Under the pieces are notes generated by a model that saw only the letters and a program-made list of their open reading frames with translations, was not told the DNA's origin and searched no databases. Source: Gongronella butleri (Eukaryota > Mucoromycota > Mucoromycetes > Mucorales > Cunninghamellaceae). Taken from it: a DNA stretch of 64,000 nt. The stretch covers positions 1 through 64,000 of the forward strand of contig JAIWZP010000020.1 of NCBI GenBank assembly GCA_025201375.1. Direction: 5' to 3'. This document shows, piece after piece, positions 46,909 to 54,384 of the stretch (position 1 is the stretch's first letter; each line of letters starts with the position of its first letter). A program made the position numbers and the translations under genes.

Positions 46909-47493
46909 GCGGCCACACATCCTGTCTTTTGTATTTTTTTTTTCTCAAGCCTCCCCCTCTTACTCAATTTACCACCTCCAATTACAGCCCATTCAATACA
47001 CAATGCCTCTTCCTTTGTTTACAGACTGCCTTGGTGCACTTCAGGACGTGCGTGACAGCGAGAGTCACGGCCAAGGGCATCCAAAATAATGAAGATGGCG
47101 GTTCACTGTAAAAGAGGAAAAGCACCCCATTTCGTGTCTTTTGTGTGTCATCGCGCTGAAACAAAACTGTGCGTGCGATAAGCATCCCATTCTTTCGTGT
47201 CACTCACACAGGAGAGCCATGTGCCACAGGAAACGACGCGATGCGAGCCCATGGGAGATCAGGTCCATTGTCAATTGAACCCGTTTTTCGGGGTCTTTGT
47301 TCCTCTCTCTCTTTTTTTTTTTTTTTTTTTTTTTTTTTGAGCTGGCATTGAATTGGCGGATTTCTCGTGTTTGCATTCAGGCACATCCCATCCTCTCCTT
47401 TGCCTCTCTTGTTTGAAATCATGTGCATAGAACCCTTGCATGCCACCGAAGCATCCGCATTCCATAAAATATGACTGGGCCCCATTTTTTTCC

Positions 47494-47526
<33 letters not shown>

Positions 47527-47611
47527 GTGGTTGTTTCAGCATTCCTTATCTGGCCAAAATGGGTTAGTGTTGACCAAAAGCCACTTCGTTGCGTGGGAAT
47601 TGCTTGTTCTC
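46909..47611. other. Intergenic region with two long T-runs
   Basis: No gene. T-runs of about 28 nt at 47311-47338 and 47500-47526. Contains the PPP1R37-like 3' end and the upstream part of the ribozyme locus. Confidence 0.5.
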
Positions 47612-47620
47612 TATAAAAAG
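47612..47620 (+). promoter_or_regulatory. TATA box of the ribozyme-bearing transcript
   Basis: TATAAAAAG followed by a C/T-rich leader. A pol II start would be expected near 47640-47650, about 30-40 nt before the upstream ribozyme cleavage site at 47679/47680. Confidence 0.6.
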
Positions 47621-47679
47621 GCGGCCGATTTGTTTCTTATTTTTTCCCATCTCTTTCCTTCATTTTCTCTCTCATACAC

Positions 47680-47754
47680 GGGTGCATACGTCCAGTCACC
47701 TCCTCGTGGTTGCCCCGGAAACCGTGCCTTTGCGTGCGGGCAAAGAATTGGACG
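47680..47754 (+). ncRNA. HDV-like self-cleaving ribozyme, upstream copy (imperfect P1)
   Basis: The HDV double-pseudoknot order is present. P1 5' strand GGGTGCA (47680-47686); P2 CGTCCAGT (47689-47696) with partner ATTGGACG (47747-47754), eight pairs with one G-U; P3 ACC/GGT (47698-47700, 47708-47710) closing L3 TCCTCGT; P1 3' strand TGCCCC (47711-47716). P1.1-type GG then AAACC follows; P4 is CCGTGC...GCGTGCGG with wobbles; the J4/2 region is GGGCAAAGA with the catalytic C at 47741. P1 pairs only if one T is bulged (GGG-T-GCA with TGC-CCC), so activity may be weak or lost. L3 is closer to HDV's than that of the downstream copy. Confidence 0.65.
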
Positions 47755-47757
47755 CCC

Positions 47758-47794
47758 TCACGATGGCTTAATCGTGAAAAAGCCTTCGGGCTTT
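47758..47794 (+). ncRNA. Two hairpins immediately after the upstream ribozyme
   Basis: TCACGA (47758-47763) pairs with TCGTGA (47772-47777). Directly after it, AAAGCC-TTCG-GGCTTT (47779-47794) makes a six-pair stem with a UUCG tetraloop. Both sit between the ribozyme and a T11 run, suggesting a structured RNA rather than coding sequence. Confidence 0.55.
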
Positions 47795-48152
47795 CTTAGC
47801 CAAGCTACCTTTTTTTTTTTTGTGTATGCCGCTGTCCCCCTGCTCAGACGTTTACTCGTCTTGACCGCCCCTTCTGTCCCGGTGCCCTGCCACCAACGTC
47901 CCCCATGCTCCACTTCTCAAGAGTTGTCCTGCCCAGTCTCTCGCGTACCTGTTTGTATCGCAATGTCCCAGCCCCTCGTGCCCCAGCCGCACTGTTTAGT
48001 CTCCGCGCCTCGCCGCCGTCCCGGAATCCTTTGTTGGATTGCCGTCGTGAACCCCCCTCGATAGTACCTTGTTACTCTGTTTAGATTGCACATTCGCATT
48101 TGTTGGTTCTTTTTTTTCTGGTTTTTTTTTTCTTCGTCCTGAAAGAAAAAAA

Positions 48153-48231
48153 GGGCGTGCATAGCCAATTACCTCCACGTGGTCACGCCTGGGCAACCAG
48201 CTCGTAAAAAGAGCTGGGCTAAAGATTGGCT
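48153..48231 (+). ncRNA. HDV-like self-cleaving ribozyme, downstream copy
   Basis: All parts of the HDV fold are visible. P1 GGGCGTG (48153-48159) pairs with CACGCCT (48184-48190), seven pairs including the G1-U wobble seen in HDV. P2 AGCCAAT (48163-48169) pairs with ATTGGCT (48225-48231), seven pairs. P3 ACC/GGT (48171-48173, 48181-48183) closes L3 TCCACGT (HDV: UCCUCGCU). GGGCAAC (48191-48197) is identical to HDV at P1.1/J1.1-4. P4 is CAGCTC/GAGCTG (48198-48203, 48211-48216) with loop GTAAAAA. J4/2 GGCTAAAG places the catalytic C at 48219. Predicted cleavage is between 48152 and 48153. Length is 79 nt. Confidence 0.88.
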
Positions 48232-48235
48232 TTTC

Positions 48236-48241
48236 AATAAA
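48236..48241 (+). terminator. Poly(A) signal just after the downstream ribozyme
   Basis: AATAAA begins five bases after the last P2 nucleotide of the ribozyme. A transcript polyadenylated here would carry the ribozyme at its 3' end, so cleavage would remove the tail. Confidence 0.5.
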
Positions 48242-48939
48242 TACCTCCTTTATACCTCTTTTTATAGTTTTTGTTGTGTTTGGGTAGGCTTTGTTTATTT
48301 ATTTCGTTGACCATGTGTGCATGCGACAAGACAAAGCAAATGACCTTTAGCACGGTCTTCGCACGCTTTGTGGATTTTGTTTCATGCGTGGATTGTGTAA
48401 AAAAAAGCTTTGGCGGGTTATTGGCAGGCAGCGTGGCAGCTCGTGTGGCCTGTTGGTGATGGATCTCGGGCGCCACAAAACAAGATACCTGAGAGTGACC
48501 AGACATACGACAATCGTCCGTTTCCTAACTAACGTTTCAGGCGTGCTCGTGTCTTTTTTTTTTTTTTTTTTTTTTTTCGCGCATACCGCGGCCATATCGC
48601 AGAAGTCGGCGCGCTAATATGACACGCATTTCCACCCTCTCTTTCTGAGAAAATTACAAGCTAAAGCCTGATCGAGGACAAACAGGTGGTGGTTGACTAT
48701 TCGGCATTTTCGTAAATTCTGCCACTTCACATTAGTGCTTGCTAAATCATCACTCTTTTGGGATGAATCTTGTAACATTGGAAAGAGACACGCTCGATCT
48801 TCTTGTTTTATCTGCAGGATTACCTGTAGCTTGGTTTACGGGGAAGGTGGCATATATCATACTTTTTTTTATGAAATTGTGTTTTTCTCTTTGGAACTCG
48901 TCAGCTAGGTATTGCAGCACCCCGAAAAGCATCGCGACG
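48242..48939. other. Intergenic region
   Basis: No gene. A T23 run at about 48555-48577. A 130-codon frame from 48739 enters the foldback element and has no motif. Confidence 0.5.
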
Positions 48940-51905
48940 TCAAGTGTCGAGGCACCAAAACCGGGTAGGCCTCGCTTTTGCATCTGTCACAAAGCGTTGG
49001 AACGCGACACACGCAAATCAAAAATTTCGTCGTGGCCAACCCCAAATCCAAAATCGAAAAATTCGGTCCTCAGAATTGCGCCAAACTTGCACACAAGATG
49101 CATCGCATGGAGAAACCACGGAAAAGGCTAAAAAAGAATAAAATCGATCTGCTGGTTCAGGAGCAATTCATGATTTTGTGCAAAAATTCAATGGCGAATT
49201 GCAGTGGAAAAACGCATCCATAAAGCCGCGCCGGCGCGTCCACTAGCAAGAGAGACACCAAATGTTGGATTCGATGAGGAACAGGCGCGTGTGACGTGAA
49301 GTTTGATGCGATTTACTACGCGTCGAAAATTATATATGGTTTTGAATCCGTGTCCAAAGTGCCACAGGTCACTTTTTTCACAGTTCACCAATGTTCCATA
49401 CGCAGCAAGCCACTCTCTTTCCGATGATGTCTGTTTCATCAAGATACAGGCACTTTTCATCGAGATCATCTTGAGCTGAAAATAAGACCTAAATTCTATT
49501 TTGCGCCACAACTGGCCAATGGACCCCCGGTTTTTATTTGATTTCCGGCGGTGACCGAGGAGCGCTTACCATGGGGTTAAATGACGTGGCAATCCGACGA
49601 CTTTAATGTTAGCATTTTCAAATCCTTGACTGTACCTCAGGCGATTTTGGTGATTTTCAATTTGCGTGATTGCGCGCCATCCGATGATCGCCATGGCGCG
49701 CGAGTGGGCTCATTTGAACGAGAAGACATACAAGAAGTCGATTAACGTGTAAATACTCTATAGTAATAAGGCAGAAATTGACAAGCAACCAGAGTACTAG
49801 CAATCAGGTTTTTTCTACACAAAACGTCAAGTTTCTGCTTTACGACGACGCCTGAAACCTACATTTGTGCGCAAAGATGGGGACCAGCTACTGCATGAAT
49901 TTAGCAGGCACTTGTATTGCACCAATGCGGTCAAATCGCGCTTTCTAAAAAAGAGAATTCTGAGAATGCCATTTTAGCGGGGGCATTTTGAAAACCGGCA
50001 GAACTTTGACTTGCCCACGTGCGCACGCATCAGAGTTCCTGAATGAGCTCAGTTTAGTCATCGTGGCGTGTTCAGTTGGCAAGTATTCGCTACTTATTGT
50101 GATTTTCACTAAAGATGGTGTGTTCTAGATAGTTCCACTATTTGATCAGCTTGAAACTTTGTTAACCTCGAGAGAACGATTCGCGCTTCAACTTGGTAGC
50201 CTGGAGCACAGGGTTCCAATGCAGGACAAATCAAGTTAATCAAAGAAAAACAAAATAATAACTGGTCGTTACAAGTTGCGCGTCCTTTGCCACTGCAACA
50301 GCGCTTCGCTTGCATATTACCATTTGTTCAAGTCAGCACGCTCTATACATTGATTCCAATTTTAATAAATTTGTCTAGCAGCAGCCTTAGGAAAATGCGT
50401 TTTGCTGTTTTTTAATTTGTAGGGTTTATAAAACTATTCTTCCACGCCATTGTATCGCTTTGCTGTCAGCGGTATTCTTGTAGCTGATGGCACGTGCTGT
50501 GTCGAACACCTGCTTTCAAATAAATATGTTTATAAAAAAGAAGCACAAATCGCAGAAGATTGAAGTAATTTTACTTTTCTTGGAGTAGCTTGCTTGTTTA
50601 GCTTTGTATCCCCTTGCTTCAGGTAGCAAAGTGGAAGCGCGAGTCAGTCCCTTGTGGTTATCAAAATTTCTAGCTGCTTAAAAAGTAGAAATGTTGAGAA
50701 CACGTCGTATTTAGTGAAAATCAAGACATTCAGCATTTTTTCACCAGTGGTATGCGCGCTCATGGCAAAACTGAGTGCATTCAGGTACCATGATGCTGAT
50801 GCACACGTCCATGTCAAAGGTTTGCAGATGTTCAAAAACCCCCCTGCTAAAATGGCATTCACAGAATTCGCTTTTTTAAAAAAAGCGATTTGATCACATT
50901 GAAACAATGCAAGTGCTTGCGAAATTCATACAGCAGATGGTCCCCATCGTTGCGCACAATTACAACCCTCGGGCGTCTCAGTAAGTCAGAAACGAGACAT
51001 TTTTTGTAGAAAAATGCCTGGTAGTTAGTATTTTGGTCGCCTGTCAATTTTTTCACTATTACTATGAAGTATTTGCACATTAATCACAGTATTCCATGTC
51101 TCCTCGTTCAAATGGGCCCACCCGCGCGCCACTGCAATCATTTGAAGGCGCGCAATCACGTAAATCAAAAAACGCCAAAATCGCCTGGGGTACAGACGAG
51201 GATTTGAAAATGCCAAAAATAAAGTCCTCAGATTGCCTCGCCATTTAACCCCATGGTGAATATTCCTGGTTCACTGCTGGAAATCAAATAAAAACCGAGG
51301 GTCTATTATTGGTAAGTTACTATGTAAAATGAGATTTGGGCCTTTTTTTGAGCTCAAGGTGATCTCGACCAAAGGTGCCTGTATCTTGATGAAACTTATA
51401 TCATCAGAAAGAGTGTGGCTCGCTACGTATATAGACATTGATGATCGGTGAAAAAAGTGAATTGCAGCACTCTGGATGCGGATTCAAAATCATATATAAT
51501 TTTCGACGGGTGATAAACCGCGTCAAACGTCGTTACACGCGCCTGTTCCTAATGGAATCCAGCGCCTGGCTTCTCTCTTGCCTGTGGACGCGTAGGCGCG
51601 ACTTTATGGACGCGTTTTTGCTATGCAATTCACCTTTGTAATTTCACACAAATTCACGAATTGCTTGTCAACCAGCAGATCGATATCATTCTTTTTTAGC
51701 CTTTTCCGTGGTTTCTCCATGCGATGCGTCTTGTGTGTGAGTTTGGCGCAATTCTGAGGACCGATTTTTTCGGTTTTGGATTTGAGAGCAGGCCACGATG
51801 AATTTTTGTTTTTTGTGTTGCGCGCCTTGGCGACTTGCGGCAGATTGCCAGTTAGGCCCACCAGGTGTTTTTGGCTCCCCAATTCACTGAGACAGTGGTT
51901 TGGCG
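48940..51905. mobile_element. Foldback palindrome element (family 2), copy C, about 3 kb
   Basis: The whole segment is an imperfect palindrome centred near 50420. The outer pair 'attgcgccaaact' (49074) is inverted at about 51740-51755; 'ccatggggttaaatg' (49570) is inverted at 51241-51255; 'gaatgccattttagcgggggc' (49965 region, read in part) is inverted near 50846-50868; 'cgcgcttcaacttggtagcc' (about 50188) is inverted near 50620-50645. Arms are about 1.45 kb, with roughly 80-85% identity by eye. No frame longer than 92 codons exists. Copies A (9870) and B (33180) are related. Confidence 0.75.
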
Positions 51906-52238: not shown

Positions 52239-54384
52239 ATGGACGACGAAGAGCGGCGAAAGTTTGATCACTTGCTGATGTGGTTGAGCATGGAGACGTC
52301 CATGAGGTAGGTAGCGAGAGAAAGAGAGAGCCGGCTCGCGCAGAAAGGCCGGGATCTGACAACATGGTGTATTGCTTTTTCTTTGCTTAGCGACGATGAC
52401 CTGTTTTTCAAAGCTGACACGCCCGAGAATGCGCCAAAGTTCCCCGAGCGGCGGCGGCGTGCGCTCAAGGCGCGGCACGCGCGCGTCATGGAGCGGCTTG
52501 TGCGTCACCAGGCTCTGGAATTACGCGGTCTTCACAAGCAGATTGCGCAGGCGATTGACCTGGCGCAGTGGCCACAGGAAAACGAGCCATTGCGGCAGCT
52601 GGTGACGGGCAAGGCGTATGTGGATGCCAATTTTGAGGTGATCCGGTGCATTCTGGGCGGCATTCCACTGCCACCCGAGCTCAATGGGGGTCGGCCTGAG
52701 GAAAAGCAAGCACGCGAAGCCAAAGAACAAGCCAAAAATGTCGACAAACTCAAACGGATGCAATACAAGGCGATCATGGAGGTAAGAAAAAAAAAAGGCA
52801 CCCTTTGGGGGGGGGAAGCGAGGATTGGTCATTGATCTCTTTTATTATTTTTTTTTTTGAAATTAGGAAAAAGCACAAGCTTCGTTCCAACAGCTATTTA
52901 TCAAGCAGCGTGAGCAGCGGACGATTTTACGGCTTTATCAATCAGAAGAGTTTGCGTCGGATGTGGCCCCACGATCCAAGATAGTGGCGACACCTGTACC
53001 GCGTGCGCCACAGATCGATGTCCGCGGGTCGACACGGCCGCCACCAGCAGCAGTAACAGCAGCAGCACACGTGCCGCGCGCCGCGCCATTGACTGCACAT
53101 CCGCCGACGGCGCCCGCAGCCATGACGGGCGGCGCGTTCCATCATCAATACCCGGTGCAGGCACCCATAGGGCACGCCAATCCACCCGAGACGGCCACAG
53201 CGTCGTTCCGCCCGCTCCACCACACGGACGCGTCACGCGATCCGCGTCGCCAGCATCAGCCGCGTCCTCCAGCACCAGCACCACCCCCTGCACAAGCACC
53301 ACCTCCTGTACCACCTCCTGTACCAGCACCACCACTTGCACCAGCAGCACCACCACTTGCACCAGCAGCACCACTTGTACCAGCACCACCAGTACCACCA
53401 GCACCGCCGGCACCACCGGCACAGCCATTGCCGCCACAGCAACCACCGATGCCCGCAATGGCGCCTCCACCTTCATTACCAACCCCTCAACCGCTTCAGA
53501 CACACGCGTCAACCTCCTCTTCCGCTACGGAACACGTGCATATCGCGTCACCCGCCAGGTCTCCTATAGCGTCGCCCGTGCAATCGACAAAACCCATTGT
53601 GTTTGCACCCATTAGCGACAGTGCCATTGCCGCCGTCAAGGCCACATCGCCCACGGCGCCCGACAAGGACAATGCCTCGATGCTCATGTCACTCACGGAG
53701 AAATTGAAGCGATCGCTGGCCGACGACAATATGGATCAAGTGGCAGAGTGCGTGAAAATGATCAGCCAGCTTCACGACGACGCCAATGCCACATCAGTTG
53801 CCGACGAACCAATTAACGCGGACGCCTTGCCACCGCGCAAAAAGAAGCGCGGCGGTAAGAGAGTTAATCGCAGTCGACGTGGACGCGCACGGTCGCCATC
53901 GCCGCTTGAAACACCGCACAACTATGGCCCTGCACGTACCGTGTTTCATCCTGCAAATTCGTCATCGTCAGCACCCAGGGCGTTGCCATCAAGAGGCAGC
54001 AGACGCAAATTGCGCTCAGAAAAAGCGCCTGAACTGTTTAAAAAGCACATGATCAATGCTGGCAGGCTCGATGTGCGACCGGCTACTGCCAATGCACCGC
54101 CACATCTCATCTGTTACTTTCCCCGCACCGACAGCTACCGTGCCGAGGAAATTGATCTTGGTCCGATCGAATTGTATATCAAAGCTGTCGATTTAAACCC
54201 AACCGAGCGCGTTTGGATGGAAGATGGCACGTATGTCGAAATGGGCGCCGAGCAGTCGCACATGCCCATCCTCCTGTACTACTCGCCTCAGCTAGAGCGC
54301 CTCTACCCCGCCGCGCCAGACAAATTGAAGGTCGGATCGTCCACCGGCATCCGCAACCTCTTGATTGCCAACCGCTTCATCTGA
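52239..54384 (+). CDS. Large proline-rich protein with basic nuclear-type motif, unknown function
   Basis: Three exons (52239-52306, 52391-52781, 52867-54384) give 658 aa. The N-terminal 150 residues are charged and helical ('MDDEERRKFDHLLMWLSMET', 'PERRRRALKARHARVMERLV', 'CILGGIPLPPELNGG'). Residues about 260-345 are a Pro/Ala repeat (APPPAQAPPPVPPP type). A basic cluster 'RKKKRGGKRVNRSRRGRAR' near 480 looks like a nuclear localisation signal. The C-terminal 130 residues seem folded: 'LFKKHMINAGRLDVRP', 'LICYFPRTDSYRAEEIDLGP', 'MPILLYYSP' and 'SSTGIRNLLIANRFI'. No known family was recognised. A nuclear scaffold or chromatin role is possible but is only inference. Confidence 0.82.

Follow-up and report, generated by a model that had tools for sequence, protein, structure and literature searches.

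A predicted HDV-like ribozyme beside a poly(A)-signal-like motif, and its relatives in the genome of Gongronella butleri

Sequence and structure of the ribozyme

Positions 48153..48231 (+ strand) of this mould chromosome stretch are predicted, very probably, to encode a self-cutting RNA of the hepatitis delta virus (HDV) type. The element, here called rz2, lies in the 64,000-nt stretch of DNA analysed (the window) and is of an alpha type with a GGGCAAC core. Sequence, structure and covariation among paralogues, together with matches to Rfam and to a family model, support rz2 as a genuine HDV-like ribozyme and back the HDV-ribozyme fold that a first-pass annotation had seen in this fungal genome. 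Judged by its class, rz2 would most probably cut its own transcript at A48152|G48153, and its likely role would be self-cleavage that sets the RNA end of a noncoding transcript. Taken as a whole, the combination of a ribozyme, cleavage of the class type and a 3'-end role is the best explanation, and we consider it probable. The site is a further member of the known HDV-like class, in an unusual genomic setting.

The helices follow the nested double pseudoknot order P1, P2, P3, P4, all on the + strand. P1 (GGGCGTG 48153-48159 / CACGCCT 48184-48190) has 7 bp, the first a G-U pair. P2, the pseudoknot, also has 7 bp (AGCCAAT 48163-48169 / ATTGGCT 48225-48231), and its alternative register GCCAATT/GATTGGC pairs equally well. 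P3 (ACC 48171-48173 / GGT 48181-48183) encloses L3 TCCACGT (48174-48180); J1/4 GGGCAAC (48191-48197) leads to P4, of 6 bp (CAGCTC 48198-48203 / GAGCTG 48211-48216), and J4/2 GGCTAAAG (48217-48224), ahead of P2', carries C48219, the equivalent of C75. The letters bear out the first-pass annotation in each of these helices, in the G-U end of P1 and in the three strings. Its 'five helices' hold for the four that it named; P1.1 is the fifth helix of HDV-like ribozymes, and the fifth here would be P1.1, for which rz2 has suitable letters, CC within L3 and GG within J1/4. The lowest-energy fold of rz2 retains P1 and P4 and replaces P3 by another hairpin (z -1.89).

A significant hit to the Rfam HDV-like families had been expected, and the lack of one above threshold had been named as grounds for rejection. 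At gathering cut-offs, Rfam gave no match in the window, which formally speaks for rejection, and a model built from the genome itself speaks the other way: R1, made from 16 paralogues with the window sequence excluded, scored the held-out rz2 at 52.9 bits (E 5.7e-9). An E-value search of 401 bases (48000-48400) gave RF00094 (HDV_ribozyme) as the best Rfam match to rz2, at 38.7 bits (E 3e-4) for a cut-off of 50 bits; RF02682 (HDV-F-prausnitzii) scored 25.3 bits against a cut-off of 44 and RF01787 (drz-agam-1) 18.4 bits against 37. Because 38.7 bits lies below 50, rz2 is filed under the wider class and not as a member of RF00094. Other Rfam matches (SdsR, SraC, wcaG and so on), also below their cut-offs, were judged to be chance.

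Helices alone are weak proof of rz2, because a structure-only descriptor is also matched by chance: in 48 dinucleotide shuffles, both strands, it averaged 0.17 starts per shuffled window, with a maximum of 2. In the real window the same descriptor picks out rz2 and, at 52807-52809, a single low-complexity place. No structure-only match in the 48 shuffles contained GGGCAAC or GGCTAAAG, and the core strings, together with the family, turn the evidence for rz2 into strong evidence. A pattern of L3, GGGCAAC and GGCTAA occurs five times in the 33-Mb genome and never in the reversed control; a similar ribozyme pattern had no exact match in the viral contigs or in the prokaryote genome contigs searched. 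That chance is very unlikely, as the first-pass annotation held, is true once core strings, held-out model and family covariation are counted, and does not follow from the helices by themselves. A chance resemblance would account for the shuffled-window starts, but the R1 score, the shuffle matches devoid of core strings and the family covariation reduce its probability to a practically negligible level.

With the Rfam HDV families, rz2 agrees in the order of its helices, in its L3 and J1/4 strings and in the catalytic C of J4/2; HDV itself has a longer P4. Fungi are already known to carry HDV-like ribozymes: the main text of Li & Breaker 2017 (PMC5640933) mentions 11 fungal HDV-class examples counted before and reports 230 HDV-class representatives in 26 fungal species, with two tested for cleavage. 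The fungal variants described there have a C-G cleavage-site pair, where rz2 has G-U; a loop E replacing part of P4, where P4 of rz2 is by eye plain, with 6 bp and a 7-nt loop; and an extra P2-P3 nucleotide, which in rz2 is T48170 in one register and absent from the other (PMC5640933). Read from its letters, rz2 appears closer to the classical consensus than to these variants. The string 'mucor' has no occurrence in that main text (PMC5640933). Among the open-access matches listed, there is no report of HDV-like ribozymes in Mucorales, which is not proof of absence in print; as listed, the narrower Mucorales/HDV-like matches concern CRISPR tools and industrial strain development.

A dispersed family of ribozymes

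The genome assembly searched comprises 32,997,837 bases in 110 contigs. For a GPI ethanolamine-phosphate transferase encoded in the window, the nearest relative is from Hesseltinella (54% identity across the full query), followed by those from Chlamydoabsidia and Absidia; we take all three genera to be Mucorales. With E <= 10, RF00094 marks at least 28 alpha-type sites, of which the highest-scoring reaches 42.1 bits and none passes the cut-off; the number is a lower bound, as 86 of 718 candidates were scored, and the weakest sites have individually poor E-values. R1 finds each of the 28 with an E-value no higher than 0.00033 (22 loci, 177,922 bases). The core pattern has 22 genome sites and none in the reversed control. 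One of the 22, C28:104498, is new; this site (C28:104498-104526, - strand) has an alpha core with a 3-base insertion and is a pattern match only. Five further ribozymes, called beta, have GGAAAC replacing GGGCAAC; they score 42.9-45.9 bits with R1 at other loci, and each is located on the same strand as an alpha copy, 668-719 nt downstream of it. The total is about 35 HDV-like sites: 28 found with RF00094, one by core pattern and six with the GGAAAC core, the sixth being a second motif in the window, rz1.

Covariation was counted in 33 ribozymes (28 alpha, five beta; rz1 not in the set), which amount to 17 distinct helix sets. With helix registers picked in favour of pairing, 284 of 289 P1-P3 cells are paired; 2000 partner shuffles of these cells averaged 256.5 paired and never exceeded 266. 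Both sides have changed in 11 of the 17 P1-P3 pairs, and the catalytic C of J4/2 is kept in 33/33 members. An earlier set of 18 hand-picked sequences (17 of 24 alignment rows, with seven near-repeat rows excluded, plus one beta; again excluding rz1) gave 301/306 paired cells and likewise 11/17 changed pairs, and is superseded by the 33-sequence count.

By our own grouping of flanks, the loci fall into groups A (contigs C57/C37), C (C36/C80/C93), D (C21/C34) and E (C83/C64), and a group B that holds most C1 and C48 sites, C98 and, through short matches, C69 and C45. The singletons include the window ribozyme. Group B shows outward-facing ribozyme pairs at both ends of palindromic DNA and tandem units of ~112 bp. 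Its palindromic loci are L020 3391-5516, L019 2658-5334 and L017 2293-7093, and the order in L019 is beta-alpha-palindrome-alpha-beta. Within groups A and C the copies are 92-99% identical between roughly -550 and +450 around the ribozyme and mostly 70-89% identical beyond; across the twelve alignments listed, 32 of the 414 indels have a length divisible by three. Given this identity profile and these indels, the loci of groups A and C are noncoding with a conserved core. A ribozyme core of ~1 kb is more conserved than its homologous flanks (e.g. L015/L018 and L033/L026), as if selection or conversion acted on the whole of it.

The best documented genomic role of HDV-like ribozymes, in the accounts cited, is the processing of retrotransposon 5' ends (PMC4035085, PMC7761336), and rz2 might be such a ribozyme, or its remnant, freeing the RNA of a non-LTR element from a co-transcript. 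The R2 and L1Tc/ingi ribozymes are also HDV-like and, as described there, also sit in dispersed repeats, as do many copies here; they stand at the 5' end of RT-related elements, none of which lies near the rz2 family (PMC4035085, PMC7761336). None of 58 RVT_1 matches falls within 15 kb of any site, allowing that broken pieces may escape, and the nearest is ~19 kb from a ribozyme, on C34. For four of the groups (A, C, D and E), shared DNA reaches 1-2 kb upstream of the ribozyme, whereas a ribozyme at a 5' end would have it just downstream. Since no RT match lies within 15 kb, support for an R2/L1Tc-type role is weak, and this origin is very unlikely for rz2.

The poly(A) signal and a candidate role at the 3' end

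A poly(A)-signal-like AATAAA (48236..48241, + strand) begins 5 nt past the last base of rz2 and is the sole + strand AATAAA within 47001-48600. The association recurs in the family: AATAAA starts no more than 40 nt downstream of 23 of the 28 alpha ribozymes, compared with 112 of 3562 control stretches, each 46 nt long, from the same loci, and by eye is found in the flanks of all five family betas. These counts do not stand for 28 independent events, because many copies are paralogues. It is missing from five alphas: C24:382753, C83, C51, C24:201713 and C64.

The association with AATAAA suggests trimming just before the poly(A) signal. With less assurance, ribozyme and AATAAA may form a module, a repeated 3'-end device of noncoding transcripts. 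The window transcript may begin near a TATA box (47612), cross a diverged motif at 47680 and extend to a point past 48241. By analogy with the class, in the + strand RNA the 2'-OH of A48152 would attack the phosphate preceding G48153, C48219 serving as the general acid and Mg2+ taking part, to leave a 2',3'-cyclic phosphate on the upstream product and a 5'-OH on the ribozyme. Placed just before the poly(A) signal, such a cut might part the body of the RNA from its tail.

As the source cited describes them, most genomic HDV-like ribozymes outside retrotransposons are without known role (PMC10879173). Here some 35 sites, mostly followed by AATAAA and with no RT match within 15 kb, point to a testable one: the cutting of noncoding transcripts before the poly(A) tail. 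In the open-access literature as searched, the only work found to combine an HDV-like ribozyme with a polyadenylation signal was R2-based transgene insertion. Phage theta ribozymes, as described in the cited source, are HDV-like too and make an RNA 3' end beside tRNAs; they are bacteriophage-borne, minimal and tRNA-linked, unlike rz2 (PMC10879173). A tRNA search of the window, run with bacterial settings, found no tRNA gene.

In 22 of the 28 alphas, the pairing predicted for the 45 nt ahead of the ribozyme stops 0-3 nt before the cut. A stabilising upstream hairpin is a suggestion only. As a conserved 3'-end stabiliser it was rejected: over 34 sites (28 alpha, five beta and rz1), its mean z is -0.70, against -0.10 to -0.67 at 150-400 nt away.

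A second motif, the 473-nt interval and the surroundings

The first-pass annotation contained neither the genome-wide family nor the adjoining poly(A) signal, nor rz1, a diverged HDV-like motif with a GGAAAC core (47680..47753, + strand). Its start lies 473 nt upstream of rz2 on the same strand, downstream of a TATAAAA (47612..47618, + strand) that might be the promoter of the unit. This is one of 10 TATAAAA on the + strand of the window; TATAAA was not found at a constant place in the other ribozyme loci. R1 scores 47680-47752 at 24.5 bits (E 0.0027), and the nearest Rfam model is RF02682 (20.0 bits, E 0.11, cut-off 44). A pattern for the GGAAAC core has six matches in the genome, namely the five family betas and rz1, and none in the control. 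P1 of rz1 has 6 bp with a bulged U and P2 has 7 bp with one G-U; the C75 equivalent is C47741. Because P1 is bulged and the fold weak (z +0.86, weaker than the shuffle mean), rz1 may be inactive, and from its letters its activity appears doubtful. No AATAAA lies near it within 47001-48600.

Retrozymes carry their ribozymes in direct repeats and have a circular RNA intermediate. As presented in the cited sources, they are noncoding repeats of a few hundred nt bounded by self-cleaving ribozymes, as the rz1-rz2 interval is (PMC7761336, PMC4918200). They use hammerheads (PMC7761336); the window has two HDV-type motifs that differ from each other, and one of them is probably degenerate. If both motifs cut, a segment of 473 nt (47680..48152, + strand) with a low coding score would be released, and a host ligase may circularise it. 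The two motifs share a strand, and five family loci likewise pair an alpha with a beta on one strand, 668-719 nt apart; with 28 alphas in the genome, the chance of finding any one beta no more than 720 nt from a same-strand alpha is roughly estimated at ~6e-4. The order in the window, beta then alpha, is nevertheless the reverse of that in the five loci, themselves mutual paralogues. The motifs differ in core and helices and are not direct repeats of each other, and the interval is single copy in the genome. With the bulged P1, the fold z of rz1 and its lack of a nearby AATAAA, a retrozyme-like unit is quite unlikely. Unlikely as well, to a slightly lesser degree, is a wider proposal for this mould: dispersed noncoding RNA genes whose ends HDV-like ribozymes, each coupled with a poly(A) signal, would make, the two ribozymes of the TATA-to-AATAAA unit in the window freeing a 473-nt RNA with 5'-OH and 2',3'-cyclic phosphate, closable by a tRNA-type ligase.

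The intergenic, single-copy position of rz2 and its degenerate neighbour would also fit a relic, a ribozyme that was active in the past and is no longer transcribed. Against this, its core letters and every P1-P4 pair are intact despite wide divergence from the paralogues, and we regard a relic as distinctly improbable. For self-cleavage at the 3' end, the preferred reading, the two-motif unit is a ready test case.

A 59-codon ATG frame within the interval (47905-48081) was rejected as coding: its codon score is -0.21, near the intergenic -0.28 (sd 0.19), versus 0.51 (sd 0.24) for window genes. No Pfam domain was found in the enclosing frame 47800-48081. By eye, the product of the 59-codon frame resembles a mitochondrial signal.

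Upstream, the neighbour of rz2 has LRR frames, and an open frame there ends at 47089; in frames from 52311 on, no Pfam domain was found at E 0.1. Given these neighbours, a place for rz2 in a UTR or intron of a conserved gene was rejected. Downstream lies a large inverted repeat (49015-50256 and 50568-51812) with arms 78.7% identical. Its outer ~716 bp are a dispersed repeat with at least 41 genome matches, both window arms included; as this repeat is differently placed relative to the ribozyme in other loci, the inverted repeat was discarded as an element of rz2's own. Many long poly-T tracts occur between genes and inside open frames (e.g. 47314-47337 and 47500-47526), and those of the window are perhaps intronic.
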